Origin: Marinobacter sp. F4218
Lineage (GTDB): Bacteria > Pseudomonadota > Gammaproteobacteria > Pseudomonadales > Oleiphilaceae
Direction: 5' to 3'
DNA: 64,000 bases
Assembly (NCBI RefSeq): GCF_019443085.1
Contig: NZ_JAHZIL010000003.1
Span: 2,170,001-2,234,000, forward strand
In this document: in pieces, positions 1,476 through 62,340 of the stretch
Numbering within the stretch: position 1 is the stretch's first letter
Layout: each line of letters begins with the position of its first letter
Translations under genes and position numbers: made by a program
Notes under the pieces: model-generated
Told to the model about the DNA's origin: nothing
The model's input: only the letters and a program-made list of their open reading frames with translations
Databases searched by the model: none

Positions 1476-2651
1476 TCAGATCTTGCAGCCCCGGGCCGGA
1501 TCTTCCAGCGCCTGGGCGGCGACGGTCTGCACTACGTTCACACCATCTTTCACTTCCCGCAGGTAGATGTTCTGGATTGGGTTGTGGGCCCTGGAGAAGG
1601 TGAATGCACCTCTCGGGCTGTCGATGGTGAGTTTCTCCATGGTGCTGATCACGGCCTGCTTGTCGGATATATCGCCTTCCAGCTGGTCGATGGTGTCGGC
1701 GATGGCCTGGCCGGCGTCATAGCCCTGGACGGCGTAGATGTCCGGGTAGTGGCCGTATTCGGTGTTGAAGGCTTCACGGAATTCGTGGTTCTCGGGAATG
1801 TCGAGCTGCTCCGCGTAGTGCAGGCCCGTCATGATGCCCTCGGCGGCAGGGCCCTGGGCCTCCAGGGTGCCTTCGGTCAGGAAGCCGGAACCCAGCAGCG
1901 GGATCTTGCCGCGCAGGCCCATGGCGTCGTAATCCTTGGCGAACTTGATGGCTCCACCGCCGGCGAAGAAGGTGAACACGGCGTCGGGTTGCTCGTCGGC
2001 GATGTCACTGACGTGGGACTGGAAGTTGGTGGACGGGAAGGGCAGCAGCACCTTCTCGACAATTTCACCACCACCGGCCTCAAAGGATTCGGCGAAGGCA
2101 TCCAGGCTCTCGCGGCCCATGCCGTAGTTCCAGCTGATGGCGTAGACCTTTTTATAGCCCTTATCGAGAGCGACCTTGCCCATGGGGTAGGACGGCTGCC
2201 AGGACGAGAAGGAGGTCCGGAACACGTTGGGCGAACACAGGGGGCCGGTTGCGGCGGCCGAACCCGCGTTGGGGATGATCATGATGGTGTCCTTGCCGCG
2301 CAGCATCTTGATCATGCCCATGGCAACACCGGAGTGAACCGGACCGATCACGAAGTCCGCTTTGTGCTGGTTGAGCAGCGAGGAGGCCAGTTCCGGGGCC
2401 CTTGAGGGCTTGGCCTCAGTATCCAGCTCAACGAACTCGATTTCGGCACCGTGCAACTGGTCGACACGTTGTTTCAGGGCCAGCCTGAGGCCGTCCCGAC
2501 CGGCCTCACCCAGCTGGGCGTAGATGCCGCTGAACGGCAGCATGACACCGATTTTCACCGGGTCGCCGGCAGCCGCCAGGGCAGAGGTAGAAAGCCCGGC
2601 GGCCAGGGTGGTTGCCAAGGCAGTGCTGGCAAGGGTTTTAATGGGGTTCAT
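1476..2651 (-). CDS. Periplasmic substrate-binding protein of branched-chain/aromatic-type ABC transporter
   Basis: Type I periplasmic binding protein (Peripla_BP_6 family) of 391 residues with a signal peptide (MNPIKTLASTALATTLAAGL, cleavage near ALA/AAG) and the typical opening VKIGVMLPFSGIYAQLGEAGRDG. It is the first gene of the operon with livH and livM. The ATG at 2651 is preceded by a strong GAGGTGAG ribosome site and, further up, an AACAACAA motif. It follows the terminator of pcaIJFD, so it has its own promoter. Homologues near aromatic pathways bind benzoate or phenylpropenoid acids; the ligand here is inferred only from location. Confidence 0.9.
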   Translation of the reverse strand: MNPIKTLASTALATTLAAGLSTSALAAAGDPVKIGVMLPFSGIYAQLGEAGRDGLRLALKQRVDQLHGAEIEFVELDTEAKPSRAPELASSLLNQHKADFVIGPVHSGVAMGMIKMLRGKDTIMIIPNAGSAAATGPLCSPNVFRTSFSSWQPSYPMGKVALDKGYKKVYAISWNYGMGRESLDAFAESFEAGGGEIVEKVLLPFPSTNFQSHVSDIADEQPDAVFTFFAGGGAIKFAKDYDAMGLRGKIPLLGSGFLTEGTLEAQGPAAEGIMTGLHYAEQLDIPENHEFREAFNTEYGHYPDIYAVQGYDAGQAIADTIDQLEGDISDKQAVISTMEKLTIDSPRGAFTFSRAHNPIQNIYLREVKDGVNVVQTVAAQALEDPARGCKI

Positions 2652-2666
2652 GTGCTCACCTCAATT

Positions 2667-2674
2667 TTGTTGTT
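2667..2674 (-). promoter_or_regulatory. AANAANAA (AACAACAA) motif before binding-protein start
   Basis: AACAACAA lies on the minus strand 15 nt upstream of the ATG, just before the GAGGTGAG ribosome site. This is the placement of Hfq/Crc catabolite-repression targets known in pseudomonads. Function here is inferred. Confidence 0.4.
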
Positions 2675-7486: not shown

Positions 7487-8389
7487 TCAGGGATAGCGTC
7501 CGGTCAGCCGGTTCTCCACCAGCTCGGCGAGGATAGTGTTGGCCAGGCGCATGACAGCATTCGGGTTCTCGCCGCGCCGGCGCGAGGCGATGACCGGTGT
7601 GGTGATGTTGTTGTCCTCCAGAGGCATGAACTCCACACCCTCGCGGTTCAGTTTCCGGACCTGTTCCGGTACCAGGGTAAAGCCCATGTCGGAGGCGACC
7701 AGGGACAGCGCGGTCTGAAGATCATTGACCTGCTGGCTGACGTGGATCTTGAGGCCGCGCCGGTGGAACAGGCCCTGGGTGATGTCGGCGAAGTTCGGAC
7801 CCGGGCCCGCAGGAAAGGTCACCATGGGCCAGGCCGACAGTTCTTTCATGGACGGCGGGTGTCGGGTCAGCTGGTGGCCGGCCGGAATGGCCGCAATGAT
7901 CGGCTCGTCGAACAGCAGTTCCTGCTCCACGTCGGGATCTTCGATGCTGATGCGGCCAAAGCCGATATCAATCTTGCCCGTTTTCAGGGCCTCCACCTGC
8001 TCCCGGGTTTTCAGCTCGTGCAGCACAATCTCCAGGTTCTTGTTCCGGCGCAGACGCCGGACCATCAGCGGTAGCTGGCCGTAGAACACCGACGGCACGA
8101 AGCCGATGGAGAAAATGGTCTTGCGGTGCTGGGCGATGCGTCGGGTGTCTTCGACCGTTGCGGTGACCTTGTCCAGAATCTGTCGCGCCTGCTCCAGGAA
8201 GTACTCCCCGCCGTTGGTCAGTTCCAGCCCCCTGGGTTTGCGGACAAACAGCTCGACCCCGATTTCCTCCTCAAGCTGCTTCATGGCCCGGGTCAACGGT
8301 GGTTGTGCAATAAACAGCTTTTCGGCGGCCCGGGTCAGGTTGCCTTCCTCTCCCACTGCCACGAAGTACCGCAGGTGTCTCAGCTCCAT
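7487..8389 (-). CDS. LysR-family regulator of cat/ben genes (CatM/BenM/CatR type)
   Basis: LysR regulator of 300 residues: helix-turn-helix at 1-60 (MELRHLRYFVAVGEEGNLTRAAEKL, IAQPPLTRAMKQLEEE) and a periplasmic-binding-like effector domain (about 90-295). The opening is nearly that of BenM/CatM/CatR, which activate cat and ben genes with cis,cis-muconate (and benzoate for BenM). It diverges from catB and ends directly at the pcaR stop codon. An ATAC-N7-GTAT palindrome, the BenM/CatM recognition pattern, overlaps its ribosome-binding site. No AraC-type BenR is visible, so this protein may control both catBCA and benABCDK; that extension is inference. Confidence 0.9.
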   Translation of the reverse strand: MELRHLRYFVAVGEEGNLTRAAEKLFIAQPPLTRAMKQLEEEIGVELFVRKPRGLELTNGGEYFLEQARQILDKVTATVEDTRRIAQHRKTIFSIGFVPSVFYGQLPLMVRRLRRNKNLEIVLHELKTREQVEALKTGKIDIGFGRISIEDPDVEQELLFDEPIIAAIPAGHQLTRHPPSMKELSAWPMVTFPAGPGPNFADITQGLFHRRGLKIHVSQQVNDLQTALSLVASDMGFTLVPEQVRKLNREGVEFMPLEDNNITTPVIASRRRGENPNAVMRLANTILAELVENRLTGRYP

Positions 8390-9981: not shown

Positions 9982-9992
9982 AACAACAACAA
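9982..9992 (+). promoter_or_regulatory. AANAANAA motif (AACAACAACAA) before catA
   Basis: AACAACAACAA, two overlapping copies of the Hfq/Crc-type motif, 8 nt before the GGAG ribosome site and 19 nt before the catA ATG. Suggests post-transcriptional catabolite control; inferred. Confidence 0.45.
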
Positions 9993-10011: not shown

Positions 10012-10953
10012 ATGACCGTTAAAACCATGCAAACTGCGGAAGTGAAGGACCTGCTGGAGAAAGTTGCCGGCTTCAACACGGACGGTGGGAACGAACGGGT
10101 GAAGAAGATTGTTCACCGGGTTATGCACGATGTTTTTCAGATTATCGAAGACTTTGATGTCACTCCGGATGAATTCTGGCAAGCCGTGTACTACGTAAAC
10201 GAACTGGGCCAGAACGGTGAGGCCGCCCTGTTGGCACCGGGCCTGGGTATGGACAAGTACCTGGACATCCGGCTTGACGCGGAAGATGAGCAGGCAGGCC
10301 TGGACGGCGGCACGCCGCGCACCATCGAAGGCCCGCTGTACGTGGCCGGTGCGCCCAAAAGCGACGGTTTCGCCCGCATGGACGATGGCTCCGATGAGAA
10401 CGCCGAGACCATGGTCCTGACCGGTCAGGTGACTGACGAGAACGGTCAGCCTGTTACCAACGCCGTGGTTGACGTGTGGCACGCGGACACCAAGGGTGCC
10501 TACTCCTACTTCGATCAGTCCCAGAGCGAGTACAACCTGCGTCGCCGGATCGTCACCGATGAGAATGGCCGTTACACCGCCCGCTCCATCATCCCGTCCG
10601 GTTACGGCTGCCCGCCCGAGGGTTCCACCCAGGCGCTGCTGAACCTGTTGGGCCGTCATGGCAACCGTCCGGCGCACATCCACTTCTTTATCTCCAAGCC
10701 GGGCTTCAAGCACCTGACCACCCAGATCAACCTGGCTGGTGATGAGTACACCTACGATGACTTTGCCTTCGCGACCCGGGACGAGCTGGTGGTTGACGCC
10801 AACCGCATTGAGGACCCCGCCAGGGCCGAGGCATTCGGCCTGAACGCGCCGTTCACCGAGGTGGAGTTCAATATCCAGCTGGTGTCGACCGACAAGCCGG
10901 AGCTCCAGACCCGTCACGAGCGCAAGCGCGCACTGGAGGGTGAGGCGGCCTGA
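10012..10953 (+). CDS. catA: Catechol 1,2-dioxygenase
   Basis: Intradiol ring-cleavage enzyme turning catechol into cis,cis-muconate. It has 313 residues with an N-terminal helical dimerisation domain (about 1-100) and a C-terminal beta-sandwich catalytic domain. Non-heme Fe(III) ligands are visible as Tyr164 (DTKGAYSY), Tyr198 (PSGYGCP), His222 and His224 (RPAHIHFF). The start at MTVKTMQ follows GGAG; an in-frame TTG 12 codons upstream lies in the CAA-rich leader. Downstream is a strong hairpin before benA. Confidence 0.97.
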   Translation: MTVKTMQTAEVKDLLEKVAGFNTDGGNERVKKIVHRVMHDVFQIIEDFDVTPDEFWQAVYYVNELGQNGEAALLAPGLGMDKYLDIRLDAEDEQAGLDGGTPRTIEGPLYVAGAPKSDGFARMDDGSDENAETMVLTGQVTDENGQPVTNAVVDVWHADTKGAYSYFDQSQSEYNLRRRIVTDENGRYTARSIIPSGYGCPPEGSTQALLNLLGRHGNRPAHIHFFISKPGFKHLTTQINLAGDEYTYDDFAFATRDELVVDANRIEDPARAEAFGLNAPFTEVEFNIQLVSTDKPELQTRHERKRALEGEAA

Positions 10954-11053: not shown

Positions 11054-11061
11054 AAGAACAA
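11054..11061 (+). promoter_or_regulatory. AANAANAA motif (AAGAACAA) before benA
   Basis: AAGAACAA sits directly before the AGGAG ribosome site, 15 nt from the benA ATG. Candidate Hfq/Crc-type site; inferred. Confidence 0.4.
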
Positions 11062-11076
11062 GAGGAGTGAGATGAC

Positions 11077-12453
11077 ATGAGCAACAAACTTGAACAACTC
11101 GCAGACAAGGTCCGCAATGCGGTGGTCGCGGACCCGGAAACCGGTCGCTACCAGTGCGATCGCGGTATCTTCACCGACCGCGAACTGTTTGACCTGGAAA
11201 TGAAGTACATCTTCGAAGGCAACTGGGTCTACCTGGCCCACGAGAGTCAGATCCCGAACCCGGGCGACTACTTCACAGTGACCGTCGGGCGTCAGCCGGT
11301 GATCATCACCCGGACCAAGGCGGGCGATCTGAAAGCCATCCTGAACACCTGCTCCCACCGTGGCGCCACCCTTTGCCGCAAGAAGCGCGGCAACAAGACC
11401 TCGTTCACCTGTCCGTTCCACGGCTGGACCTTCAGCAACGATGGTCGACTGCTGAAAGCGAAGGACCAGAAGAAGGGCGGCTACCCGGAACAGTTCAACA
11501 CCGACGGTTCCCACGATCTCAAAGAGATGCCCAAGTTCGGCAATTACCGTGGTTTCCTGTTCGGCAGCCTGAATGCCGATGTACTGCCCCTGGAGGAGCA
11601 CCTGGGCGAGACCACCAAGATCATCGACAACATCGTCGACCAGTCCGAGGACGGTCTGGAGATTCTGCGCGGCAGCTCCACCTACACCTATGAGGGTAAC
11701 TGGAAACTGACTGCCGAGAATGGCGCCGACGGCTATCACGTCAGCACCGTGCACTGGAACTACCTGTCCACCATGGGCCAGCGCAACTATGAAAAGGGCG
11801 GCACCGAGGCCGTGGACGCCAAGAGCTGGTCGGCCGAAGGCGGTTTCTACTCCTTTGAGAACGGCCACATGATGCTCTGGACGCGCCTGCTCAACCCTGA
11901 GGTTCGTCCGATCTTCAGCCAGCTGGAGCGACTGGAAAAAACCTACGGTGAGGCCCGTGCCGATTCCATCGTCCGTACCACCAAGAATCTGTGCCTGTAT
12001 CCGAACGTGTACCTGATGGACCAGTTCTCCACACAGATCCGGGTCACCCGCCCGATCGACGTGAACAAGACCGAGGTCACCATCTACGCGTTCGGTCCGA
12101 AGAACGAGCCGGCTGAGCTGCGCACCAAGCGCATTCGACAGTACGAGGACTTCTTCAACGTGTCCGGCATGGGCACACCGGACGACCTGGAGGAATTCCG
12201 CGCCTGCCAGAGTGGCTACGAAGCCCGCGACGCGCGCTGGAACGACATGAGCCGGGGCGCCGCTCATTGGATCGACGGGCCGGACGACCATGCCAACCAG
12301 CTGGACATGAAGCCGACCATGAGTGGCTCCAAGCCCGAAGACGAAGGCCTGTACGTGAACCATCACAAGCACTGGCAGGACGAGATGATCCGTGCCATTG
12401 ATGCCGAGCGTGCCCGTTTCATCCCCGTGACCGAAGAGGAGGCGTCCGCATGA
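11077..12453 (+). CDS. benA: Benzoate 1,2-dioxygenase, large (alpha) subunit
   Basis: Terminal oxygenase alpha subunit, 458 residues. With BenB and BenC it dihydroxylates benzoate to a cis-diol carboxylate. The Rieske centre is Cys92-x-His94 (TCSHRGA) and Cys112-xx-His115 (CPFHGW). The mononuclear iron site shows His221 and His226 in [14 protein letters not shown], with the bridging Asp218. It starts at [10 protein letters not shown] after AGGAG. The stop overlaps benB by 4 bp. Toluate dioxygenase (XylX) is the closest alternative; BenA is preferred because of benD, catBCA and benKE in the same cluster. Confidence 0.96.
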
Positions 12454-14802: not shown

Positions 14803-14810
14803 AAGAACAA
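14803..14810 (+). promoter_or_regulatory. AANAANAA motif (AAGAACAA) before benK
   Basis: AAGAACAA (in AAGAACAACAG) precedes the GGGAGTGAGAG ribosome site of benK by 4 nt. The same arrangement is seen at benA and catA. Confidence 0.4.
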
Positions 14811-14828: not shown

Positions 14829-16178
14829 ATGAGAAACATCGACGTAAACGACGTTATCGATAACGCCGCCTTCAACCGATTCCACTGGAAGGTACTCTTC
14901 TGGTGCACCCTGATCATCATCTTTGATGGCTACGACCTGGTGATCTACGGTGTGGTGTTGCCGCTGCTGATGGAGCAGTGGGGCCTGAACCCCTATGTTG
15001 CCGGGCTTCTGGGCAGCAGCGCTCTGTTTGGCATGATGTTCGGGGCCATGGGCTTTGGCATGCTGTCGGACCGGCTGGGCCGAAAGAACGTGATCATTGC
15101 CTGTGTGGTGCTGTTCAGCGTTACCACGGTGATCAACGGGTTTGCCACCACGCCCTGGCAGTTCGGTATCCTGCGCTTCATTGCCGGCCTGGGTATCGGC
15201 GGTGTGATGCCCAACGTGGTCTCACTGATGAGTGAATACTCACCGGCGCGCAAGCGCAGCACGCTGGTGGCGCTGATGTTCAGTGGCTACGCCGTGGGCG
15301 GCATGATGTCGGCCGGCCTGGGTATCTGGATCGTGCCCAACTTCGGGTGGGAGATCATGTTCTACCTGGCCGTCGTGCCCATGCTGATGCTGCCATTCAT
15401 GCTGAAATTCCTGCCGGAGTCCGTGGCCTTCCTGATGGCGAAAAAGCGGGACGATGAAGCACGGCGTATTCTCCAGCAGGTTGCACCCTTCAGGGACATC
15501 AACGAGCTGGACCGGCTGACTTTTCCAGCCACCACCGACAGCAAGGCGCCCGTACTGGAGCTGTTCCGGGGTGGCCGGGCCATGAGCACCCTGATGTTCT
15601 GGACCGCGTTCTTCTGCTGCCTGCTGATGGTCTATGCGCTGGGGTCCTGGCTGCCCAAGCTGATGTCCAACGCCGGCTATGCCCTGAGTTCAAGCCTGAT
15701 GTTCCTGATGGTCCTGAACGTAGGCGCGATCATCGGTGCCGTGGGTGGGGGCTGGCTGGCCGACCGGTTTTCCCTGCGCTCGGTGCTGGTGAGTTTCTTT
15801 GTACTCGGGTCGGGCTCGCTGGTCCTGCTCGGCTATGAGAGCCCGATGTGGTTCCTGTACACGCTGATGGGCGTGGCGGGCGCGACCACCATTGGCTCCC
15901 AGATCCTGCTGTACGCCTATGTGGCCCAGTATTACCCGACCAGTATCCGTTCCACTGGCCTGGGTTGGGCGTCGGGTATCGGCCGCAACGGTGCGATTGT
16001 CGGGCCCATGCTTGGCGGAACCCTGCTGGCTCTGGCGCTGCCGCACCACATGAACTTCCTGGCGCTGGCCATTCCGGGCGTCATCGCAACCGTTGCCGTC
16101 GCGCTGGTGGGGCGCAAGGCTTCCCGGTTCAGAACCACAGAGCCGGTGCGGCGTTCGGCCGCGGTTGCGAGTAACTGA
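14829..16178 (+). CDS. benK: Benzoate transporter, MFS aromatic acid:H+ symporter family
   Basis: Inner-membrane secondary transporter with 12 predicted membrane segments, 449 residues. The AAHS family mark in helix 1 is present (IIIFDGYDLVIYGVVLPLL, with the DGxD acidic pair), as is the loop 2-3 motif GMLSDRLGRKNV. It lies 62 bp after benD in the same direction and is followed by a terminator. PcaK-type substrates (4-hydroxybenzoate) are possible, but the benABCD neighbours favour benzoate. Confidence 0.9.
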   Translation: MRNIDVNDVIDNAAFNRFHWKVLFWCTLIIIFDGYDLVIYGVVLPLLMEQWGLNPYVAGLLGSSALFGMMFGAMGFGMLSDRLGRKNVIIACVVLFSVTTVINGFATTPWQFGILRFIAGLGIGGVMPNVVSLMSEYSPARKRSTLVALMFSGYAVGGMMSAGLGIWIVPNFGWEIMFYLAVVPMLMLPFMLKFLPESVAFLMAKKRDDEARRILQQVAPFRDINELDRLTFPATTDSKAPVLELFRGGRAMSTLMFWTAFFCCLLMVYALGSWLPKLMSNAGYALSSSLMFLMVLNVGAIIGAVGGGWLADRFSLRSVLVSFFVLGSGSLVLLGYESPMWFLYTLMGVAGATTIGSQILLYAYVAQYYPTSIRSTGLGWASGIGRNGAIVGPMLGGTLLALALPHHMNFLALAIPGVIATVAVALVGRKASRFRTTEPVRRSAAVASN

Positions 16179-25321: not shown

Positions 25322-26335
25322 ATGGTCGAGCGTCTCGTCATCTGTGCCGATGGCACATGGAATCGTCCCGAAGAAGACCTGCAGAAAGACGTTCCCACCA
25401 ATGTTCTTCGAATGGCCCGGGCCATCAGTCCGCTGACCGCCAGAGGCTGGCCCCAGCACGTGTTTTACGACTGGGGCATCGGCTCCTACTACAATGCCGT
25501 GATTGGTGGCGCGACGGGCCAGGGCATTCACAAGAACATCATGGATGCCTACCGCTACATCGTTCAGAACTATGAGCCCGAAACCGAACTGTATTTCTTT
25601 GGCTTCAGTCGCGGCGCCTACACGGTGCGCTCGTTGTGCGGCCTGATCAATAACTGTGGCATCCTCAGGCGGCCCGATGCGCGGCTGATCCAGAAAGCCT
25701 TCGACCATTACAAAAAAGCGGGCAAGGAGTTCGCGCCGTCCGGAACGGAGTCGTTGAAATTCCGCGCTGAGCACAGCCATCCGTCCCGGGAAATTCGTTT
25801 TGTCGGGGTGTGGGACACCGTCGGAGCCCTTGGCGTGCCGTTTTCATTGCTGGGATTGTTTGATCGCAAAGACGAGTTTTACGACACCAAACTCGGCAGT
25901 AATGTCCGGGTGGCTCGACACGCACTGGCCATTGATGAACGCCGGGAGGATTTCGAACCCACCCTGTGGCACCCGAGGCCGGGGCTCGATCTGAAACAGG
26001 TATGGTTCGCAGGGTCTCATAGCGACATCGGTGGCGGGTATCCGGCGGATGAGGCAGGACTGTTCGCCTCGGACATTGCGCTGGACTGGATGGTGCAGGA
26101 AGCGAGAACGGCGGGCCTTGAGATCGAGCCACATCTGCCGGCTGCGGCCAGGCCCGATCCTCGGGCGAAACTGCACAATTCCCGGCGGCACATTTTCCGA
26201 TTCTCAACACCCCTGATCAGGCCCCTGAAAGTGGCCGATGCTGAAACCTCGATTCACCCATCGGTGACGGATCGTTGGCGCCTCGACCCGGACTATCGCC
26301 CACCAAATCTGGAGCAGATCGGGTTTCAGGGCTGA
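25322..26335 (+). CDS. DUF2235 alpha/beta hydrolase (Tle1-like phospholipase family)
   Basis: 337 residues. It begins RLVICADGTWNRPEE, then has YDWGIGSYYNAVIGGATGQG, the nucleophile motif GFSRGAYTVRSL with Ser in GxSRG, VGVWDTVGALGVP, and WFAGSHSDIGGGY carrying the Asp and His region. This is DUF2235, which includes type VI secretion phospholipase effectors. No type VI genes or adaptor are nearby, and the protein lacks extra effector domains, so a housekeeping esterase is as likely. Start set at MVERLV; an ATG six codons upstream is an alternative. Confidence 0.85.
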   Translation: MVERLVICADGTWNRPEEDLQKDVPTNVLRMARAISPLTARGWPQHVFYDWGIGSYYNAVIGGATGQGIHKNIMDAYRYIVQNYEPETELYFFGFSRGAYTVRSLCGLINNCGILRRPDARLIQKAFDHYKKAGKEFAPSGTESLKFRAEHSHPSREIRFVGVWDTVGALGVPFSLLGLFDRKDEFYDTKLGSNVRVARHALAIDERREDFEPTLWHPRPGLDLKQVWFAGSHSDIGGGYPADEAGLFASDIALDWMVQEARTAGLEIEPHLPAAARPDPRAKLHNSRRHIFRFSTPLIRPLKVADAETSIHPSVTDRWRLDPDYRPPNLEQIGFQG

Positions 26336-37370: not shown

Positions 37371-38399
37371 TCAGTCGTTCTGAACTTCTTTCAGGTCTTC
37401 CTTGAACTGGTTAAGCAGTTCCTTGCCGCTCTCGCCAGTCATTTCGATGAACTTATCCTCAACCTGGGGAGCGCGCTCCTTGAAGGCCTGGATCTGTTCG
37501 TCGTTCAGACGGGTAACGGTAACCTCGTCGGATGCTTTCTTGATCTTGCTAAGGGCTTCCTCAGCCAGGCCATCGATGTGGACAATGATTTCCTCGAAGG
37601 CAAAATCGGCGGCGTCCTGAACCAGCTTCTGGTCTTCATCGGACAGGCCTTCGTAGAAATCCTGGTTTGCCATCATCGCGGTCGTGAACCAGCCATGGCT
37701 GGTGAAGACCAGGTTCGGAGACACTTCGTACAGACCACCGGACTCGATCCAGAAAATCGGGTTTTCCTGACCCTGGATCATGTTGGTCTGGAGTGCACCA
37801 TACACTTCACCCCAGGGCAGCGGCGTCGGTGTGGCACCAAAGGCTGCATAGGTTTCGGACAGCAGCGGGTTGGTCATGACGCGGATCTTCTTGTTGTTGA
37901 AGTCCTCCGGTTTGGTGACCGGTTCGTCAACAGTGACCACCATTTCGCCTTCCGGGTACATCTTCAGAAGCTTAAGTCCCTTGTCGGCATACAGCTTCGG
38001 GAAATCTTCGTTGATGGCTTCACTCTCGCGGAAGAACTTGATGACCGTATCCATGTCGGTCGGCATCAGGTAGGGAATGAAGAAAATCTGCGCTTCCGGA
38101 ATCAGGGCGCCGGTGAAACCAGGAGACTGGTTCACAAAGTTGAGGATGCCGGCCTGGGTCTGCTCCATGATATCGTCGGATTCACCCAGCTCACCGAAAC
38201 GGTAAATTTGCAGGCTGTGATCGGAGTTTTCCTCGACGTATTCCTTGAACTTGTATGCAAACACATCCTGTACGTCGCCTTCATATTCTTCGTGTGCGTA
38301 GCGCCAGTTGGCGGCATTCACCGAATTGGCGGCCGTCATCGCCGCAAAAGCGAACGCTGAAATTCCGGCCAGTTTCTTGAATTTACTCATGCTACTCAT
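37371..38399 (-). CDS. teaA: Ectoine/hydroxyectoine-binding protein of TRAP transporter
   Basis: 342 residues with a signal peptide ending AANSVNA/ANWRY. The mature protein is close to Halomonas elongata TeaA as I recall it: NWRYAHEEYEGDVQDVF, RFGELGESDDIMEQTQ, VNQSPGFTGALIPEAQIFF, IRVMTNPLL, TPTPLPWGEVYGALQT. The NWRYAHEE segment contains the Glu known to contact ectoine. It is first in teaABCD and divergent from the esterase end. Osmotic induction is expected from the family; no specific site was identified. Start at MSSMSKFKK after GGAG. Confidence 0.93.
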   Translation of the reverse strand: MSSMSKFKKLAGISAFAFAAMTAANSVNAANWRYAHEEYEGDVQDVFAYKFKEYVEENSDHSLQIYRFGELGESDDIMEQTQAGILNFVNQSPGFTGALIPEAQIFFIPYLMPTDMDTVIKFFRESEAINEDFPKLYADKGLKLLKMYPEGEMVVTVDEPVTKPEDFNNKKIRVMTNPLLSETYAAFGATPTPLPWGEVYGALQTNMIQGQENPIFWIESGGLYEVSPNLVFTSHGWFTTAMMANQDFYEGLSDEDQKLVQDAADFAFEEIIVHIDGLAEEALSKIKKASDEVTVTRLNDEQIQAFKERAPQVEDKFIEMTGESGKELLNQFKEDLKEVQND

Positions 38400-38539
38400 C
38401 GGGTTTTCTCCGTCCGTTTTTTTACTGACAATTATTGTTACATTATTAAAGACTGGCAAAACAACGGGGTTTTCGCAAGGAAATGGCCAAAACAAAAATT
38501 TCAGACCCGGTGCCGAACCTGTATCGCAAGTTCATGAAA

Positions 38540-47473: not shown

Positions 47474-48268
47474 TTATTTGCCGGAAAAGGCTGCTGGCCT
47501 CTTGGCGAGAAACGCCGATACGCCCTCGGCGAAGTCGGCTGATTCCGTGGCCTTCAGGAATGCCTGTCGCTCCGCCTCCAGGTGAGCCTCGAGAGGACTG
47601 CCGCTGGCATCATCCACCAGTCTGCGAAATGCGCCAAAAGCCTTTGTTGGCCCATTGGCGACCCGGTGAACGACGGCCGCCAGAGTTTTGTCAAACTCTC
47701 CTTGCGGTGACACTTCGGTCACCAGACCCCATTGTTTCGCTTCGATTGCGGTCAGGGTGCGGCCAAGCATCATCATTTCCGTGGCCCGTGCGGATCCGAT
47801 CTTGTGGGGCAGAAACCACGTACCACCGCAGTCAGGTACAGTGCCTATCCCATTGTAGGCAATCAGGAACCGGGCGCTTTCCTCGGCCACGATCAGATCT
47901 GCCATCAGTGCAAGGCTAAGGCCGGCGCCAGCGGCGGCTCCCTTAACCCCGGCGATCACCGGAGCATCCATGGCTCGCAGCTTGAGAATGGCGGGAATCA
48001 GTGCATCAAGCATTCCGTTCACCGCCTCCCGGGTCTGAACGGGAGAGCCGGACATACTGGCGACATCGCCGCCCGCCATGAATGCGCGTCCTGCACCAGT
48101 CAGAACCACGCATCGAAGCCCGGGTTTGCCAGCCAGGTCTTTGACTGCATGGTGAAAGGCCTGAGCCATGGGCACGTCGATGGCGTTAAGAACTTCCGGT
48201 CGATTAAAGGTCAGGGTAGCCACACCGGTTTTCTCATTGAACGCAGGGGTCACAGGCAGGGTTGTCAT
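47474..48268 (-). CDS. PaaG-like enoyl-CoA hydratase/isomerase
   Basis: 264 residues. It resembles PaaG (1,2-epoxyphenylacetyl-CoA isomerase): LTFNRPEVLNAID, LTGAGRAFMAGGDVASM, GVKGAAAGAGLSLALMADLIV, NGIGTVPDCGGTWFLPHKIG with the Asp of PDCGGTW that is catalytic in PaaG, and the ending EGVSAFLAKRPAAFSGK. The gene diverges from the livGHM-acyl-CoA synthetase operon, so a shared CoA-thioester pathway is plausible. Start at MTTLPVT, where an AACAACAA motif runs into the ATG. Confidence 0.85.
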   Translation of the reverse strand: MTTLPVTPAFNEKTGVATLTFNRPEVLNAIDVPMAQAFHHAVKDLAGKPGLRCVVLTGAGRAFMAGGDVASMSGSPVQTREAVNGMLDALIPAILKLRAMDAPVIAGVKGAAAGAGLSLALMADLIVAEESARFLIAYNGIGTVPDCGGTWFLPHKIGSARATEMMMLGRTLTAIEAKQWGLVTEVSPQGEFDKTLAAVVHRVANGPTKAFGAFRRLVDDASGSPLEAHLEAERQAFLKATESADFAEGVSAFLAKRPAAFSGK

Positions 48269-48476
48269 TGTTGTTTGTCTCCCGTCTTTGCTTCTTTGAT
48301 GAAGCATAGGACAGACCGCCTTGGTTTTTATGGCCGGGTTGGACTATTTTGTATGTGGCTCAGGACATTGGCCTGACGTTTACGACAACAACAATAATCA
48401 CAATCTCCTTGTGTGCGAGGCAAAAACGGAGCGTTCATGGCTCTGCTTCCTTGTGCCCGGAGTGCGGGGAGGAATA

Positions 48477-51256: not shown

Positions 51257-51264
51257 AACAACAA
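51257..51264 (+). promoter_or_regulatory. AANAANAA motif (AACAACAA) before binding-protein gene
   Basis: AACAACAA in a CAA-rich leader, 9 nt before the AAGGAG ribosome site of the binding-protein gene. Candidate Hfq/Crc-type site or translation enhancer; inferred. Confidence 0.4.
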
Positions 51265-51285
51265 AAAGCAGCAAGGAGAAGAAAC

Positions 51286-52494
51286 ATGTTCAGAAATATC
51301 CTCAAAAGCGGCCGCCGACTGGCAGGTCTGGGTAGTCTTGTCGCAGCACTGACGGTGGCGGCGCCTGCCTTGGCCCAGGACAAAGAGCCTATCGTATTCG
51401 GCGGGTCGATCCCCCTTTCCGGCGTCTTTGCCTTCGCCGGTGTGCATCTGCATGCCGGGCTGACGGATTACACCAGTTGGATAAACAGCCAGGGTGGGAT
51501 TAACGGTCATCCGGTGAAGTACGTGATGGAAGACACCGGTTATGAAGTGGACCGTTCCGTGGCCGCGTTCAAGAAGATCACCGGCAGTAACACGGTTCCG
51601 GTTTACTACGGCGATAGTACCGGGTTCATGAAGACAATTGCCTCGGAACTGAATAGCAGAGGCACCACACTTATGAGCGGTGCCTCCTTTGCGACCGCAC
51701 TGACGGACAATGAACAGTACCCGTATCAGTTCATTCCCGGCCCGAACTATAGCCAGATGTTCGGCATCATCCTGGAATACATTGCCTCCCAGGGTGAGGG
51801 TGGAGAAAAACCAACGGTGGCGTTTGTCTACAGTGACACCGAGTTCGGCAAAGACCCCATTGAAAATGGCAAGGAAAAAGCTGCGGAACTGGGCATTGAT
51901 GTGGTGGAAGAAATTGTCACCAAACCGGGCAGCGTGGATGTGTCTGCAGAGGTGCTGAAGTTGCGGCGCGTGCGCCCGGATTACGTGGTGTTCCATGGCT
52001 ACGTGCTGTCACCCATCAACGAGTTCATGGTGCAGATGCGCCAGATGGGGCTGGATACCCAGTTCATGGGCACCTTCTGGTCGTCTGACAAGCTGATCAT
52101 CGACAAGATGGGTGCGGATGCCGACGGTTATATGGGCGTCATGCCCTACAACTACTACGACAGCCAGGAAAGCGGGCCTATGCTGGATGCGCTGCGTGCC
52201 CAGGCTGAAAAGAGCGACCCGGAAGCAGGTTATCGCCCCACGGGCTACATGCAGGGCTGGTTCAACGCCATGGTCTGGACCGAGGTGGTCAAGCGTACCC
52301 TCGATGCCGGTAAGGAATTGAATGCGGAGAACATGGCTGCATCGCTCGCTTCCATCAAGGACTGGGACACCGGCGGTATTATCGGTGTTCCCGTGACGGC
52401 GAAAAACATGTCGTTCCCGGTCGGTCGTATCTGGCGGGTCAACGCAGAGGAAGGCCGTTACGAGCCGGTATCAGACTGGATCCAACTCGACTGA
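51286..52494 (+). CDS. Periplasmic substrate-binding protein of second branched-chain-type ABC system
   Basis: 402 residues, signal peptide (SLVAALTVAAPALAQ), type I periplasmic fold: VFGGSIPLSGVFAFAGVHLHAGLTDYTSWINSQGGINGHPVKYV, PVYYGDSTGFMK, VAFVYSDTEFGKDPIENGKEKA. It sits between livM and livF. The downstream acyl-CoA synthetase suggests that the ligand is a carboxylic acid needing CoA activation, for instance an aromatic or aliphatic acid. Ligand not readable. Confidence 0.9.
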   Translation: MFRNILKSGRRLAGLGSLVAALTVAAPALAQDKEPIVFGGSIPLSGVFAFAGVHLHAGLTDYTSWINSQGGINGHPVKYVMEDTGYEVDRSVAAFKKITGSNTVPVYYGDSTGFMKTIASELNSRGTTLMSGASFATALTDNEQYPYQFIPGPNYSQMFGIILEYIASQGEGGEKPTVAFVYSDTEFGKDPIENGKEKAAELGIDVVEEIVTKPGSVDVSAEVLKLRRVRPDYVVFHGYVLSPINEFMVQMRQMGLDTQFMGTFWSSDKLIIDKMGADADGYMGVMPYNYYDSQESGPMLDALRAQAEKSDPEAGYRPTGYMQGWFNAMVWTEVVKRTLDAGKELNAENMAASLASIKDWDTGGIIGVPVTAKNMSFPVGRIWRVNAEEGRYEPVSDWIQLD

Positions 52495-55549: not shown

Positions 55550-56500
55550 TCAATAGCTGTGGCTCAGCAAGTAGTGGTAGTCGGTCTTGTATCGCTGCCA
55601 GGTGAGCGCCTGATTGCGGTGGTCTACCAGTCCCGCAGCATTAAACGCCTCGACAAACGCCCAGCTTTCCCCGCTGTCTGTGTATCCCTCGAATCCCCCT
55701 TCCCAGTCGATCAGTTGAATCAGATCGAGAAGTATCGTCATCGCCAGTGGGTCGTTGGCCTCCTCGAGGTAGTGGTATGCGAGCGCATAATGCTCGAAGC
55801 GATAATCGGCGGGGGCGGCATCCGCCAGGGTCGCGTCGTCCAGCGGATCGTAGTCGTAGTGCTGGTAGGGTGATGCGATGGGTTCGCCGGCCACCACAGA
55901 GGCCTGGCCTTCGGCAAACCAATAGGGCAGAAGGGTGTAGCGGGCGCTGTACCGACTCAGGTTTTCCTGAACGAAGTGGGCAAGTTGGTGGCTGAAGATG
56001 GAATCGGTTCCATAGGGCCAGTGACTGTAATGGGGGCTGATGCTGACGGCTGAAATCGATGCCTCGGCGAGCTGGTCCGGGGAAACGGAATCGGTCAGGC
56101 AGGCGAGGATCTGGCCGGGATAGGGCGCCGCCGCACTGCGATCCTCCACAAATTCGTGCCAACGCAACTGGAAACGGCCCAGCACCCCATCTATGTGACG
56201 TTCCAGCTCCGTCGCTGCAGCCCGGAAATCAGTCTCGCTGTACGCCGGCGAGCCGTAGACGCGGACCCTGCCGCTGTCGGTTTCAAAGTACAGGGGCTCG
56301 CTGATGCAGGCCTGAGCATGGGTGTCCCGGTTCCAGTCCGAATCGGGGAAGTGGTCTCCGGTGTCACGGGCGTCAAAGAAAAATCCGGGCGTGAAGGAGG
56401 AGTGGTCATCCGACCGATCGTGATCAGACGAGACGGTGACCTTGCACCCCGTCAGCAGGATGGGAACCAATGTCAGTAGTACGCTTTTCCATACAGTCAT
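55550..56500 (-). CDS. Lipoprotein resembling a gluzincin metallopeptidase with HQxxH in place of HExxH
   Basis: 316 residues with a lipoprotein signal (VLLTLVPILLTGC). In the second half, IFSHQLAHFVQENLSRYS followed by LPYWFAEGQASVVAGE has the layout of peptidase-MA-type sites (HExxH, then a downstream Glu), but the catalytic Glu of HExxH is Gln here. So it is either inactive and substrate-binding, or a changed enzyme. The upstream leader has AACAACAA before AAAGGTGG. No operon partner. Confidence 0.65.
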   Translation of the reverse strand: MTVWKSVLLTLVPILLTGCKVTVSSDHDRSDDHSSFTPGFFFDARDTGDHFPDSDWNRDTHAQACISEPLYFETDSGRVRVYGSPAYSETDFRAAATELERHIDGVLGRFQLRWHEFVEDRSAAAPYPGQILACLTDSVSPDQLAEASISAVSISPHYSHWPYGTDSIFSHQLAHFVQENLSRYSARYTLLPYWFAEGQASVVAGEPIASPYQHYDYDPLDDATLADAAPADYRFEHYALAYHYLEEANDPLAMTILLDLIQLIDWEGGFEGYTDSGESWAFVEAFNAAGLVDHRNQALTWQRYKTDYHYLLSHSY

Positions 56501-56515
56501 ACAGCCACCTTTCAT

Positions 56516-56523
56516 TTGTTGTT
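56516..56523 (-). promoter_or_regulatory. AANAANAA motif (AACAACAA) before the lipoprotein gene
   Basis: AACAACAA on the minus strand 15 nt before the lipoprotein ATG and directly upstream of its AAAGGTGG ribosome site. Candidate Hfq/Crc-type site; inferred. Confidence 0.35.
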
Positions 56524-60504: not shown

Positions 60505-62073
60505 TCAGAGCGAACAGGCGTGCTCGGCGAGGTCATCACCCGCACAACCGTAGATATTGTTCTTGAAGTTGACGGACGCGGGCGGGAGCCGATTCTGGAC
60601 ACAGGCCAGGTAGGTGTTGTTCACCATCTGATCGATCAGCAGGCTGGGTTGGGGCGCGCCGTCCACGTAGGATGTCGTCGCCCCGGTGGGATCGTAGACC
60701 AGACCGGTATTCACATTTTCATAGTCCGGGGCTGGGTTGCCGTTCACGTTGCTGTTGGCGCAGATCAGGTCGCCACTGGCATAGGCGTCGTAGTCGACTC
60801 CGTCGGCGGCTGCTTCAGGGCCGACAAGGCCATCAAAGCCTGCGATTGCCCCGGCGTTGGAGAGGAGCTCACCAATACCGCCGTACAAGATGGCTGGCAT
60901 GGTTTCCCCCAGCATCAGGGTATAGCCATCAACAATGTCCTGGATAAGCGCTCCCCGGGGATCCGCGCCGTTCCGGGCGATGGTGTTGTTGTGCATATAC
61001 ACATTCTTCACCAGTGGGCTCCAGCCCCTGGTCATGGTCGCACCGTAGTTGGCCGGGTAGTTCGCCACGTCGTCATCGGCCAGGAAATAGCTGGCGATGG
61101 CAATGGCCGTGGTTTCGTTATCGGTGATCTGGTTGTTGTAGATTTCCACGTCGCTGGTGGCATAAACAAGAACACCGGTGCCAGGCGGCACAATGCCCAC
61201 GGCGCCACTGCCCACGTTCTCGGCGTTGTTGGCATAGACCGTGTTGTTGAAGATCCGGATGTTGCCGCCGTACGCCTGTTCCAGCCCTGGCAGGTCAAAG
61301 GCCAGAATACCGCCGGTGTTGCCGGCCGCCAGGTTGTTGTACACATCGGCCATGGTGGAGTTTTCGATTTCGATACCGGCGACGTTGTTGATCGCGCTGT
61401 TGTCCCGGATCACGATGTTGTTGGACTGTCCCACGTAGATGCCCGCGTCTGCGGAGCCATAGGCGTAGTTGTTTTCCAGCAACACATTCTGGCTCTGCAG
61501 CGGATACAGGCCGTAGGCGCCGTTGTCGGAGGCCAGTTCGCCTTCCCATACGGTGGCGGTGTAGGTCATGTGAACACCGTTGGCGCTGATCGTCTTGATG
61601 CCGTTTTTGCGGGCTTCATACACCCCCAGGTCACGGATGGTGATATCAGTACCGCCCTCGAAGCGGATGGCGTCGTCGCCGTCGGCGTTAGAGAAGTCGA
61701 GGATGGTTTCGTTGATGCCGTGACCGGTCAGAATCAGCCCACTGGCGCTGTTGATGGTAATCGTTTCAGAAACGGTGAAGCGGCCCTTTGGCAACACCAC
61801 GGTGGCATCGTCCGGAACGTTGAACAGGGCAAGCAAAAGGGCCTCGGTAATGTCATCGCCGGGCTGTGCGTCTGCGGCGACGAAAATAGCGTCCCCGGGA
61901 ATCGCAAAGCCCGAGGTGGTTGTGGTCGTGCTCTGGGCCGAGGCATTCGAGCCATCCGAGCCCGCAGGTCCGGGCGCACCGTCTTTGCCGTCGTCCCCGC
62001 AGCCTGAGATGAATAGGCTGCCAGATAACACAGCGACCGAAAGCAGGCCTTTACGGCCGGGCAATGTCCACAT
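60505..62073 (-). CDS. Parallel beta-helix repeat lipoprotein (TIGR03805-like)
   Basis: 522 residues. Lipoprotein signal (VAVLSGSLFISGC), then a short collagen-like linker GKDGAPGPAGSDG, a Thr-rich spacer, and a right-handed beta-helix with repeated N-rich rungs (VLLENNYAYGSADAGIYVGQ, VIRDNSAINNVAGIEIENS, VYMHNNTIARNG). It belongs to the pectate-lyase-like or polysaccharide-binding fold, but no lyase residues are assignable. It is the first gene of a pair with the diheme cytochrome lipoprotein, 75 bp apart. Confidence 0.82.
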   Translation of the reverse strand: MWTLPGRKGLLSVAVLSGSLFISGCGDDGKDGAPGPAGSDGSNASAQSTTTTTSGFAIPGDAIFVAADAQPGDDITEALLLALFNVPDDATVVLPKGRFTVSETITINSASGLILTGHGINETILDFSNADGDDAIRFEGGTDITIRDLGVYEARKNGIKTISANGVHMTYTATVWEGELASDNGAYGLYPLQSQNVLLENNYAYGSADAGIYVGQSNNIVIRDNSAINNVAGIEIENSTMADVYNNLAAGNTGGILAFDLPGLEQAYGGNIRIFNNTVYANNAENVGSGAVGIVPPGTGVLVYATSDVEIYNNQITDNETTAIAIASYFLADDDVANYPANYGATMTRGWSPLVKNVYMHNNTIARNGADPRGALIQDIVDGYTLMLGETMPAILYGGIGELLSNAGAIAGFDGLVGPEAAADGVDYDAYASGDLICANSNVNGNPAPDYENVNTGLVYDPTGATTSYVDGAPQPSLLIDQMVNNTYLACVQNRLPPASVNFKNNIYGCAGDDLAEHACSL

Positions 62074-62340
62074 AAACAACTCCCTACGGTTCTTGTTTGA
62101 ATTCTTTGGCCGCAATCAGCCACCAGCATGACGCTAAACGGGCCGTGGGAATGGTTCCATATAATCAGGTGGTCGAATCGTGGAAGGCACTGTGCAAACT
62201 ATGAAAGGCCGCGAAAACAAGGGGCTGGGCACAGCGGTTGGGCGTTCCGAAGACGGTGTGCGAATCGTGCAATTACAGGTTTTGACCAGCGTCTTTCAGC
62301 CTGTTTGCCGGGAGTGACGCCGTTGAGAAGAGGGGAAGGA

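Follow-up and report, generated by a model that had tools for sequence, protein, structure and literature searches.

Why should a short A-rich motif, AANAANAA, stand beside the ribosome-binding sites of uptake and catabolic genes, among them those for benzoate degradation, in a 64,000-nucleotide (nt) stretch of the Marinobacter sp. F4218 genome? The stretch, hereafter the window, is contig NZ_JAHZIL010000003.1, positions 2,170,001 to 2,234,000. A first-pass annotation of it had proposed that the motif is bound by Hfq together with Crc, as in the carbon catabolite repression of Pseudomonas. Our results support this interpretation at the level of sequence, by the sites themselves, by their bias towards one class of gene, and by the Crc, the Hfq and the CrcZ-like RNA that the genome encodes. 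By analogy with Pseudomonas, we consider that the motifs are probably Hfq distal-face binding sites acting with Crc and antagonised by CbrAB and the CrcZ-like RNA, and we give this reading a probability of about 0.84.

Gene calling on the window yielded 62 genes, 60 of them with 45 nt of upstream sequence. The motif was found at all seven positions that had been named, that is, at 9982 and 9985 (+), 11054 (+), 14803 (+), 2667 (-), 51257 and 51260 (+), 56516 (-) and 48268 (-), and in two further leaders, at 62090 (-) and 38432 (-). The predicted class of target held for seven of the nine motif-bearing genes, which family matches identify as uptake or catabolic genes: two ABC binding proteins, a TRAP binding protein, catA, benA, benK and an enoyl-CoA hydratase. 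The remaining two were a beta-helix protein and a gene without family match; the latter had been called a lipoprotein. The sites, this class bias and the conservation described below were seen directly. Sites and genes are as follows, with those of the benzoate pathway at the head.

9982..9992 (+): catA site, predicted to be of the Hfq-Crc type; AACAACAACAA, within six A-R-N triplets (AGC AAC AAC AAC AAG AGT), directly 5' of the Shine-Dalgarno sequence
10012..10953 (+): catA, catechol 1,2-dioxygenase (NCBIfam TIGR02439, 470 bits, above cut-off)
11054..11061 (+): predicted benA site; AAGAACAA, five A-R-N triplets reaching into the Shine-Dalgarno sequence
11077..12453 (+): benA, benzoate 1,2-dioxygenase large subunit (NCBIfam TIGR03229, 732 bits, below the cut-off of 781)
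14803..14810 (+): predicted benK site; AAGAACAA, four A-R-N triplets
14829..16178 (+): benK-like aromatic acid/H+ symporter (NCBIfam TIGR00895, 410 bits, below the cut-off of 419; Marinobacter relatives 89% identical)
2667..2674 (-): predicted site of the ABC substrate-binding protein gene 1476-2651, from motif search and gene calls
1476..2651 (-): ABC-type substrate-binding protein, Peripla_BP_6 (Pfam PF13458, 249 bits)
51257..51267 (+): predicted site, with six A-R-N triplets, in front of the ABC substrate-binding protein gene 51286-52494
51286..52494 (+): ABC-type substrate-binding protein, Peripla_BP_6 (Pfam PF13458, 153 bits)
48268..48275 (-): AACAACAA running into the ATG of the enoyl-CoA hydratase/PaaG-like gene, from motif search
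47474..48268 (-): enoyl-CoA hydratase/isomerase family protein, PaaG-like (PF00378, 191 bits; TIGR02280, 223 bits, below the cut-off of 345)
38432..38439 (-): AACAATAA, a weak site 40 nt upstream of the TRAP binding-protein start, from motif search
37371..38399 (-): TRAP transporter substrate-binding protein DctP (PF03480, 208 bits)
56516..56523 (-): AACAACAA in the leader of gene 55550-56500, which has no Pfam or NCBIfam match; may be a chance occurrence
62090..62097 (-): AACAAGAA in the leader of the parallel beta-helix protein gene 60505-62073, from motif search; may likewise be due to chance

According to the motif search and gene calls, the A-R-N/AANAANAA runs of the window adjoin or overlap the translation initiation region. 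The leader of the LysR-type regulator gene 7487-8389 had no site among the window gene calls. Folding of the catA, benA and benK leaders gave no common structure: the catA leader folds weakly, with its A-R-N run partly paired, and the benA and benK runs are mostly unpaired. We also noticed AACAACAATAA at 48387-48397 (+), upstream of an ABC transporter ATPase gene with an uncertain start codon, possibly a further site heading that uptake operon.

The first-pass annotation had suggested counting the motif before genes and in shuffled sequence. We took as leader the stretch from -45 to +5 around each start and counted AANAANAA on the sense and antisense strands. In the window, 9 of 60 leaders carried it in sense and none in antisense, and leader-by-leader dinucleotide shuffles gave a mean of 2.34, with none of 3000 reaching 9. 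Over the whole window and both strands, 28 sites were present, where shuffles averaged 12.2 and none of 100 reached 28. The rest of the genome was sampled as twenty 20-kilobase (kb) stretches (400 kb, 316 leaders). There only 8 leaders carried the motif, which is near chance, and the idea of a genome-wide motif excess was rejected. Control counts in the sample were 6 of 316 in antisense, 6 in the stretch from -110 to -60 and 8 in the 50 nt after the stop codon. The window differed from the sample (9/59 vs 8/316; one-sided Fisher, 0.0003).

Gene classes were then compared by Pfam family, drawn whole from the genome and not picked by motif (PF13458, 14 of 14 matches; PF03480, 8 of 8 matches), and response regulators (PF00072) were represented by 30 fetched of 69 matches, of which 27 were usable. 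The motif was present in 8 of the 14 leaders of PF13458 ABC substrate-binding proteins, in 4 of the 8 of PF03480 TRAP binding proteins and in 2 of the 27 of response regulators. Taking only those PF13458 genes that lie outside the window and the sample, 5 of 10 carried it (Fisher vs sample, 1e-5). A filter demanding at least 60 nt between a gene and its upstream neighbour, meant to drop operon-internal genes, left 8/13 for PF13458, 9/40 for the window and 6/178 for the sample. The motif signal is a property of a gene class, not of the genome as a whole.

A function-blind search of the genome for AACAANAA followed by GGA and ATG returned 59 places. The reversed pattern returned 5, a difference that we set aside as proof because reversal also breaks the order of Shine-Dalgarno and ATG. 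The first 30 matches gave 24 different open frames that were 60 codons or longer, 2 repeats and 4 places without such a frame. By our own reading of Pfam, which is soft in some cases (e.g., a member of the fatty-acid-desaturase family), 9 of the 24 frames encode uptake proteins (including DcaP porins, sodium symporters and binding proteins), 8 encode catabolic-type enzymes (such as PaaA/PaaC, enoyl-CoA hydratase, acyl-CoA synthetases and monooxygenases), and the remaining 7 fit neither class. As a control, 10 random genes were drawn from the 222 motif-free sample genes longer than 600 base pairs, and 1-2 were uptake or catabolic. The longest A-R-N run was also tried as a sharper motif; it served well for single sites and was too rare for class tests.

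A crc gene and a CrcZ-like RNA had been named as things to look for, and both are present. Searching the genome recovered a full-length Crc ortholog with 43% identity over residues 1-257 of P. aeruginosa Crc. The protein is 42% identical to Crc vs 23% to the genome's own ExoIII, which is a separate paralog, and reads ANLQ where ExoIII has GDMN; this ExoIII segment is lost in P. aeruginosa Crc as well. The gene is divergent from an orotate phosphoribosyltransferase-like (pyrE-like) frame 81 nt away and lies near an rph-like frame, both named from their translations; in Pseudomonas, crc sits beside pyrE. Hfq is also encoded, its best PDB match being P. aeruginosa Hfq, with Phe in place of Tyr25 of the latter. 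In a sample of the order comprising 390 genomes and 142 genera, a Crc ortholog was found in 16 of 16 genomes of the same genus, and Crc-level proteins in 309 of 390 at E 1e-25.

The CrcZ model (Rfam RF01675) had one match in the genome, of full length (53.3 bits, E 8.3e-13), between the cbrB-like and pcnB genes. Since this score is under the gathering cut-off, we speak only of a syntenic CrcZ-like RNA and not of a curated member of RF01675. The locus is ordered gluQ-cbrA-cbrB-RNA-pcnB, that is, a glutamyl-tRNA-synthetase-like gene, a kinase, an NtrC-type regulator, the RNA and pcnB, and gluQ-cbrA-cbrB-crcZ-pcnB is the order known in Pseudomonas. We likewise saw directly that hfq, crc, cbrA, cbrB and the RNA are present, as well as their order and sequence features. 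The CbrA-like histidine kinase (985 amino acids, aa) has Pfam PAS, HisKA and HATPase domains in its C-terminal part. In CbrA an SLC5-like transporter domain is fused to the kinase; the N-terminal half of the protein here gave no Pfam match to an SSF domain at E 1e-5, which leaves a transporter part of this kind unconfirmed. The CbrB-like NtrC-type regulator (467 aa) is 59-65% identical to the regulators found beside RNAs that pass the CrcZ cut-off.

We compared 14 Marinobacter-group copies of the RNA, from this genome and 13 relatives (one in a bin titled Halomonas). Because a loose promoter pattern and at least seven motifs were required in locating the copies, the following promoter and motif features are partly conditioned: all 14 share a TGGCAC-N6-TGC (GG-N10-GC) sigma-54-like promoter, A-R-N runs begin 16-19 nt past it, and each copy holds 10-14 AANAANAA, against shuffle means of 0.8-1.9 and none in antisense. 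The terminator lies at 374-402. CbrB-like boxes were not used in locating the copies. A TGTTAC box is present in all 14, at -133/-134 in 13, and GTAACA boxes occur near -80 in 14, near -112 in 13 and near -57 in 10; both are CbrB subsites in P. putida according to the accessible part of PMC6296734. The test of the A-R-N pattern was made on the alignment columns. In four consensus A-R-N runs, departures from consensus amounted to 2.9% at A, 1.0% at R and 12.7% at N, with 12.5% in the flanks; 15 of 20000 column-label shuffles reached this A/R vs N contrast, and 8 did with a third alignment method. Retention of A and R with drift at N is what is predicted for reading by the Hfq distal face under the A-R-N rule, as given in the accessible part of PMC6422490.

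How such a circuit would work can be outlined from Pseudomonas, from which we infer binding, repression, sponging and the inducing condition. With a preferred carbon source present, the Hfq hexamer and Crc would occupy the A-R-N run at the Shine-Dalgarno sequence and so block translation of the catA, benA, benK and uptake-protein mRNAs. Once the preferred source is exhausted, CbrA/CbrB and sigma-54 would switch on the roughly 400-nt CrcZ-like RNA between cbrB and pcnB, and its four conserved A-R-N patches would draw off Hfq and Crc, allowing translation to resume.

The benzoate leaders were followed across lineages using benK relatives and their neighbourhoods (80 loci). A Halopseudomonas-type group, as we presume it should be named, was made of records titled Pseudomonas neustonica, P. 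saliphila and a Pseudomonas metagenome-assembled genome (MAG). The Aeromonadales group comprised Oceanisphaera, Zobellella and Oceanimonas, which we take to belong to that order, and one gammaproteobacterial MAG (L036) placed by its leaders. A Moraxellaceae group of 45 loci, mostly Acinetobacter, included L045, titled Neisseria. L018 (titled Rhodopirellula) and L020 (titled Halomonas) were grouped with Marinobacter by their ben sequences. The ben loci of these two MAGs are Marinobacter-like (87% BenK identity), the benK leader of L018 matches those of L016 and L017 exactly, and the two bins are probably mixed or misnamed.

Crc was searched in the genomes of 37 of the loci, giving 22 orthologs (44-95% identity, E about 1e-68 or lower) and two more distant matches (32-33% identity, in the two Moraxellaceae-group MAGs covered by this search); the mixed bin L018 had no Crc match in this search. 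None of the 12 Aeromonadales-group genomes had a Crc-level match. Their matches were all weak (E 4e-7 to 6e-12), either along the length of the protein at 24-28% identity or confined to a C-terminal piece at 36-38%, which is what ExoIII would be expected to give. CatA, BenA and BenK of this group are about 76-84% identical. In the Marinobacter, Halopseudomonas-type, Marinobacterium and Aeromonadales groups, respectively, the motif was found in 13/13, 3/3, 2/2 and 2/11 catA leaders, in 11/13, 0/3, 2/2 and 1/12 benA leaders, and in 13/15, 3/3, 0/2 and 0/12 benK leaders. Both benA misses of the Marinobacter group have a stop codon just before the Shine-Dalgarno sequence, so that the gap to the preceding gene seems to be gone. 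Across these four groups, no catC, benB, benC or benD leader carried the motif, and benE leaders did in 2/14 Marinobacter-group, 1/3 Halopseudomonas-type and 0/11 Aeromonadales-group cases; catB, with no leader inside the loci, was left out of the Marinobacter comparison. Leader alignments took in only motif-holding leaders and thus illustrate the sites rather than test them. In the Moraxellaceae group, 11 of 30 benB leaders (among L044-L089) carried the motif, and the target within the same pathway may there have shifted to benB. The pathway gene carrying the site differs between lineages.

Several results weigh against an Hfq-Crc function of the motif. In the genome sample, the 8 of 316 leaders compare with about 5 by shuffling, and 38 of 300 shuffles reached 8; the genes concerned are mixed, only one being an ABC binding protein and the others a short-chain dehydrogenase, two alpha/beta hydrolases, a protease, a DUF1329 protein, an AraC-type regulator and one without match. 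The TRAP binding proteins were rejected as a second independent class, for their 4/8 falls to 2/6 with the gap filter, a value reached by 57 of 200 shuffles, and they are only suggestive. The CrcZ match stays below the 95 bits of the Rfam cut-off. Coupling between site and Crc is also incomplete. The Crc-bearing Halopseudomonas-type and Marinobacterium groups lack the motif in benA (0/3) and benK (0/2), respectively, and in the Aeromonadales group two catA leaders and one benA leader match despite the lack of a Crc-level protein. Crc-bearing Terasakiispira, Modicisalibacter and Pokkaliibacter showed 0/2 for catA (the Terasakiispira catA start looks misplaced), 1/2 for benA and 2/3 for benK, and the Moraxellaceae group 1/29, 0/31 and 1/45. 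In view of these genera and of the Moraxellaceae group, the occurrence of the site is not tied to that of Crc in all lineages. Finally, the Fisher values for the Marinobacter and Halopseudomonas-type groups together vs the Aeromonadales group (catA 1e-5, benA 0.002, benK 1e-6) overstate the contrast, because the sequences are related.

Could the A-rich runs have another role, or none? A-rich sequence upstream of the Shine-Dalgarno often aids initiation, and the runs might generally enhance the translation of highly expressed genes, through ribosomal protein S1 or as standby sites, instead of being repressor sites. Such enhancers would be expected where the sites lie, directly upstream of the Shine-Dalgarno, and the sampled leaders are indeed A-rich (A 0.26-0.28 vs T 0.20-0.21). 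However, orthologs of the Aeromonadales group mostly lack the motif, the sampled leaders overall are near chance, and the A-R-N pattern recurs in the CrcZ-like RNA, taken as non-coding. We therefore regard enhancers as an improbable explanation. We hold it just as doubtful that Hfq binds these leaders alongside base-pairing small RNAs, as it does in enterobacteria, and with Crc uninvolved. The imperfect coupling of site and Crc would fit such regulation, but the presence of Crc throughout the 16 genus genomes, with the GDMN segment lost as in P. aeruginosa, argues for a part played by Crc, as does the CrcZ-like RNA in the same 16 of 16 genomes, among the matches listed.

Chance in A-rich leaders, combined with common descent of a single ben-cat cluster, would account for the near-chance rate across the sample, and related leaders do share ancestry. 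Yet the window count was reached by none of the 3000 shuffles, and binding-protein genes outside both the window and the sample carry the motif in half of the cases (5/10). This makes chance a very remote explanation, far less credible than the other two, and leaves Hfq-Crc sites as the preferred reading.

As to the spread of the circuit over the order, a CrcZ match at E 0.001 was obtained in 72 of 390 genomes and 28 of 142 genera, 19 of them above the cut-off, in a survey run with stricter filters, so that absence says little. The listed Marinobacter-group scores were 36-55 bits, all below 95. Because weak matches could be mere A-rich sequence, 20 loci were fetched for gene context; they were picked for their scores and so as to cover several families, leaving aside the family with the highest scores, f20, which we take to be Pseudomonadaceae. 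Fifteen of the 20 had cbrA-, cbrB- and pcnB-like genes around the match, and these came from six families (f1, f2, f34, f38, f40 and f44), f1 being Marinobacter's own. In family f8, three loci had pcnB only (one at a contig end) and a fourth, at a contig end, had neither; one f2 locus, also at a contig end, had pcnB only. In L192 and L193 of f8, and likewise in L191 at its contig end, the CrcZ-like RNA lies beside pcnB with another gene at the expected place of cbrB, and these three RNAs carry a TGGCAC-N6-TGC box plus TGTTAC and/or GTAACA boxes. In locus L198 (f38) the cbrB-pcnB gap measures about 1.7 kb, and GTTAC/GTAACA boxes occur once more after the first CrcZ-like RNA; this second set may belong to a tandem second sponge RNA.

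In their accessible parts, a 2022 review states that CbrAB occurs in Pseudomonadaceae alone and that no bacteria but Pseudomonas and Azotobacter have been described with the cbrA-cbrB-crcZ arrangement (PMC8871633), and a 2018 paper calls CbrAB exclusive to Pseudomonadaceae (PMC6296734). In the open-licence literature we found no mention of CrcZ in Marinobacter or with Oceanospirillales, and, in the portions available, only an incidental one of CbrB with Marinobacter; a few listed papers also name Crc, with Hfq or with catabolite repression control, alongside Marinobacter. The predicted circuit is of a familiar type, found in a lineage to which the literature open to our search does not assign it. 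We think it likely, though with less assurance than for the Hfq-Crc reading itself, that the CbrAB-CrcZ-Hfq/Crc circuit is an old trait of the order and not an invention of Pseudomonadaceae, with the site-bearing benzoate genes shifting between lineages. If the loci work alike, food-priority control by an RNA sponge extends to marine aromatic-degrading bacteria and, if so, such control would shape the timing of their uptake and degradation of pollutants. Carriers of related ben-cat clusters with and without Crc would then offer a ready test of target-site gain and loss. Apart from these subjects, we noticed that window positions 25322-26335 (+) encode a protein whose phospholipase domain resembles Tle1, a domain of type VI secretion effectors.

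How does this predicted system compare with those already known? That benzoate genes would be targets, as the first-pass annotation had it, is supported by the sites on catA, benA and benK, with none on the regulator gene of the window; it did not carry over from P. putida gene for gene, since the benzoate target named there is benR mRNA, although Hfq motifs are also noted before several ben and cat functions (accessible part of PMC8711041). The host, Marinobacter, lies outside Pseudomonas and Azotobacter, and its Crc is only 43% identical. The RNA scores 53.3 bits where RF01675 gathers at 95, and Pfam gave no SSF match in the N-terminal half of the kinase. In other respects the likeness is close. 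A 985-aa kinase and a 467-aa NtrC-type regulator adjoin the RNA, as CbrA and CbrB would, and the RNA resembles CrcZ in its cbrB-pcnB position, its sigma-54-like promoter, its TGTTAC/GTAACA boxes, its several A-R-N patches and its length of about 400 nt. As in the Hfq-Crc repression of P. aeruginosa amiE and of P. putida, A-R-N/AANAANAA runs lie at the ribosome site, the predicted targets are catabolic and uptake genes, and Hfq, Crc and an antagonist-type RNA are all encoded.
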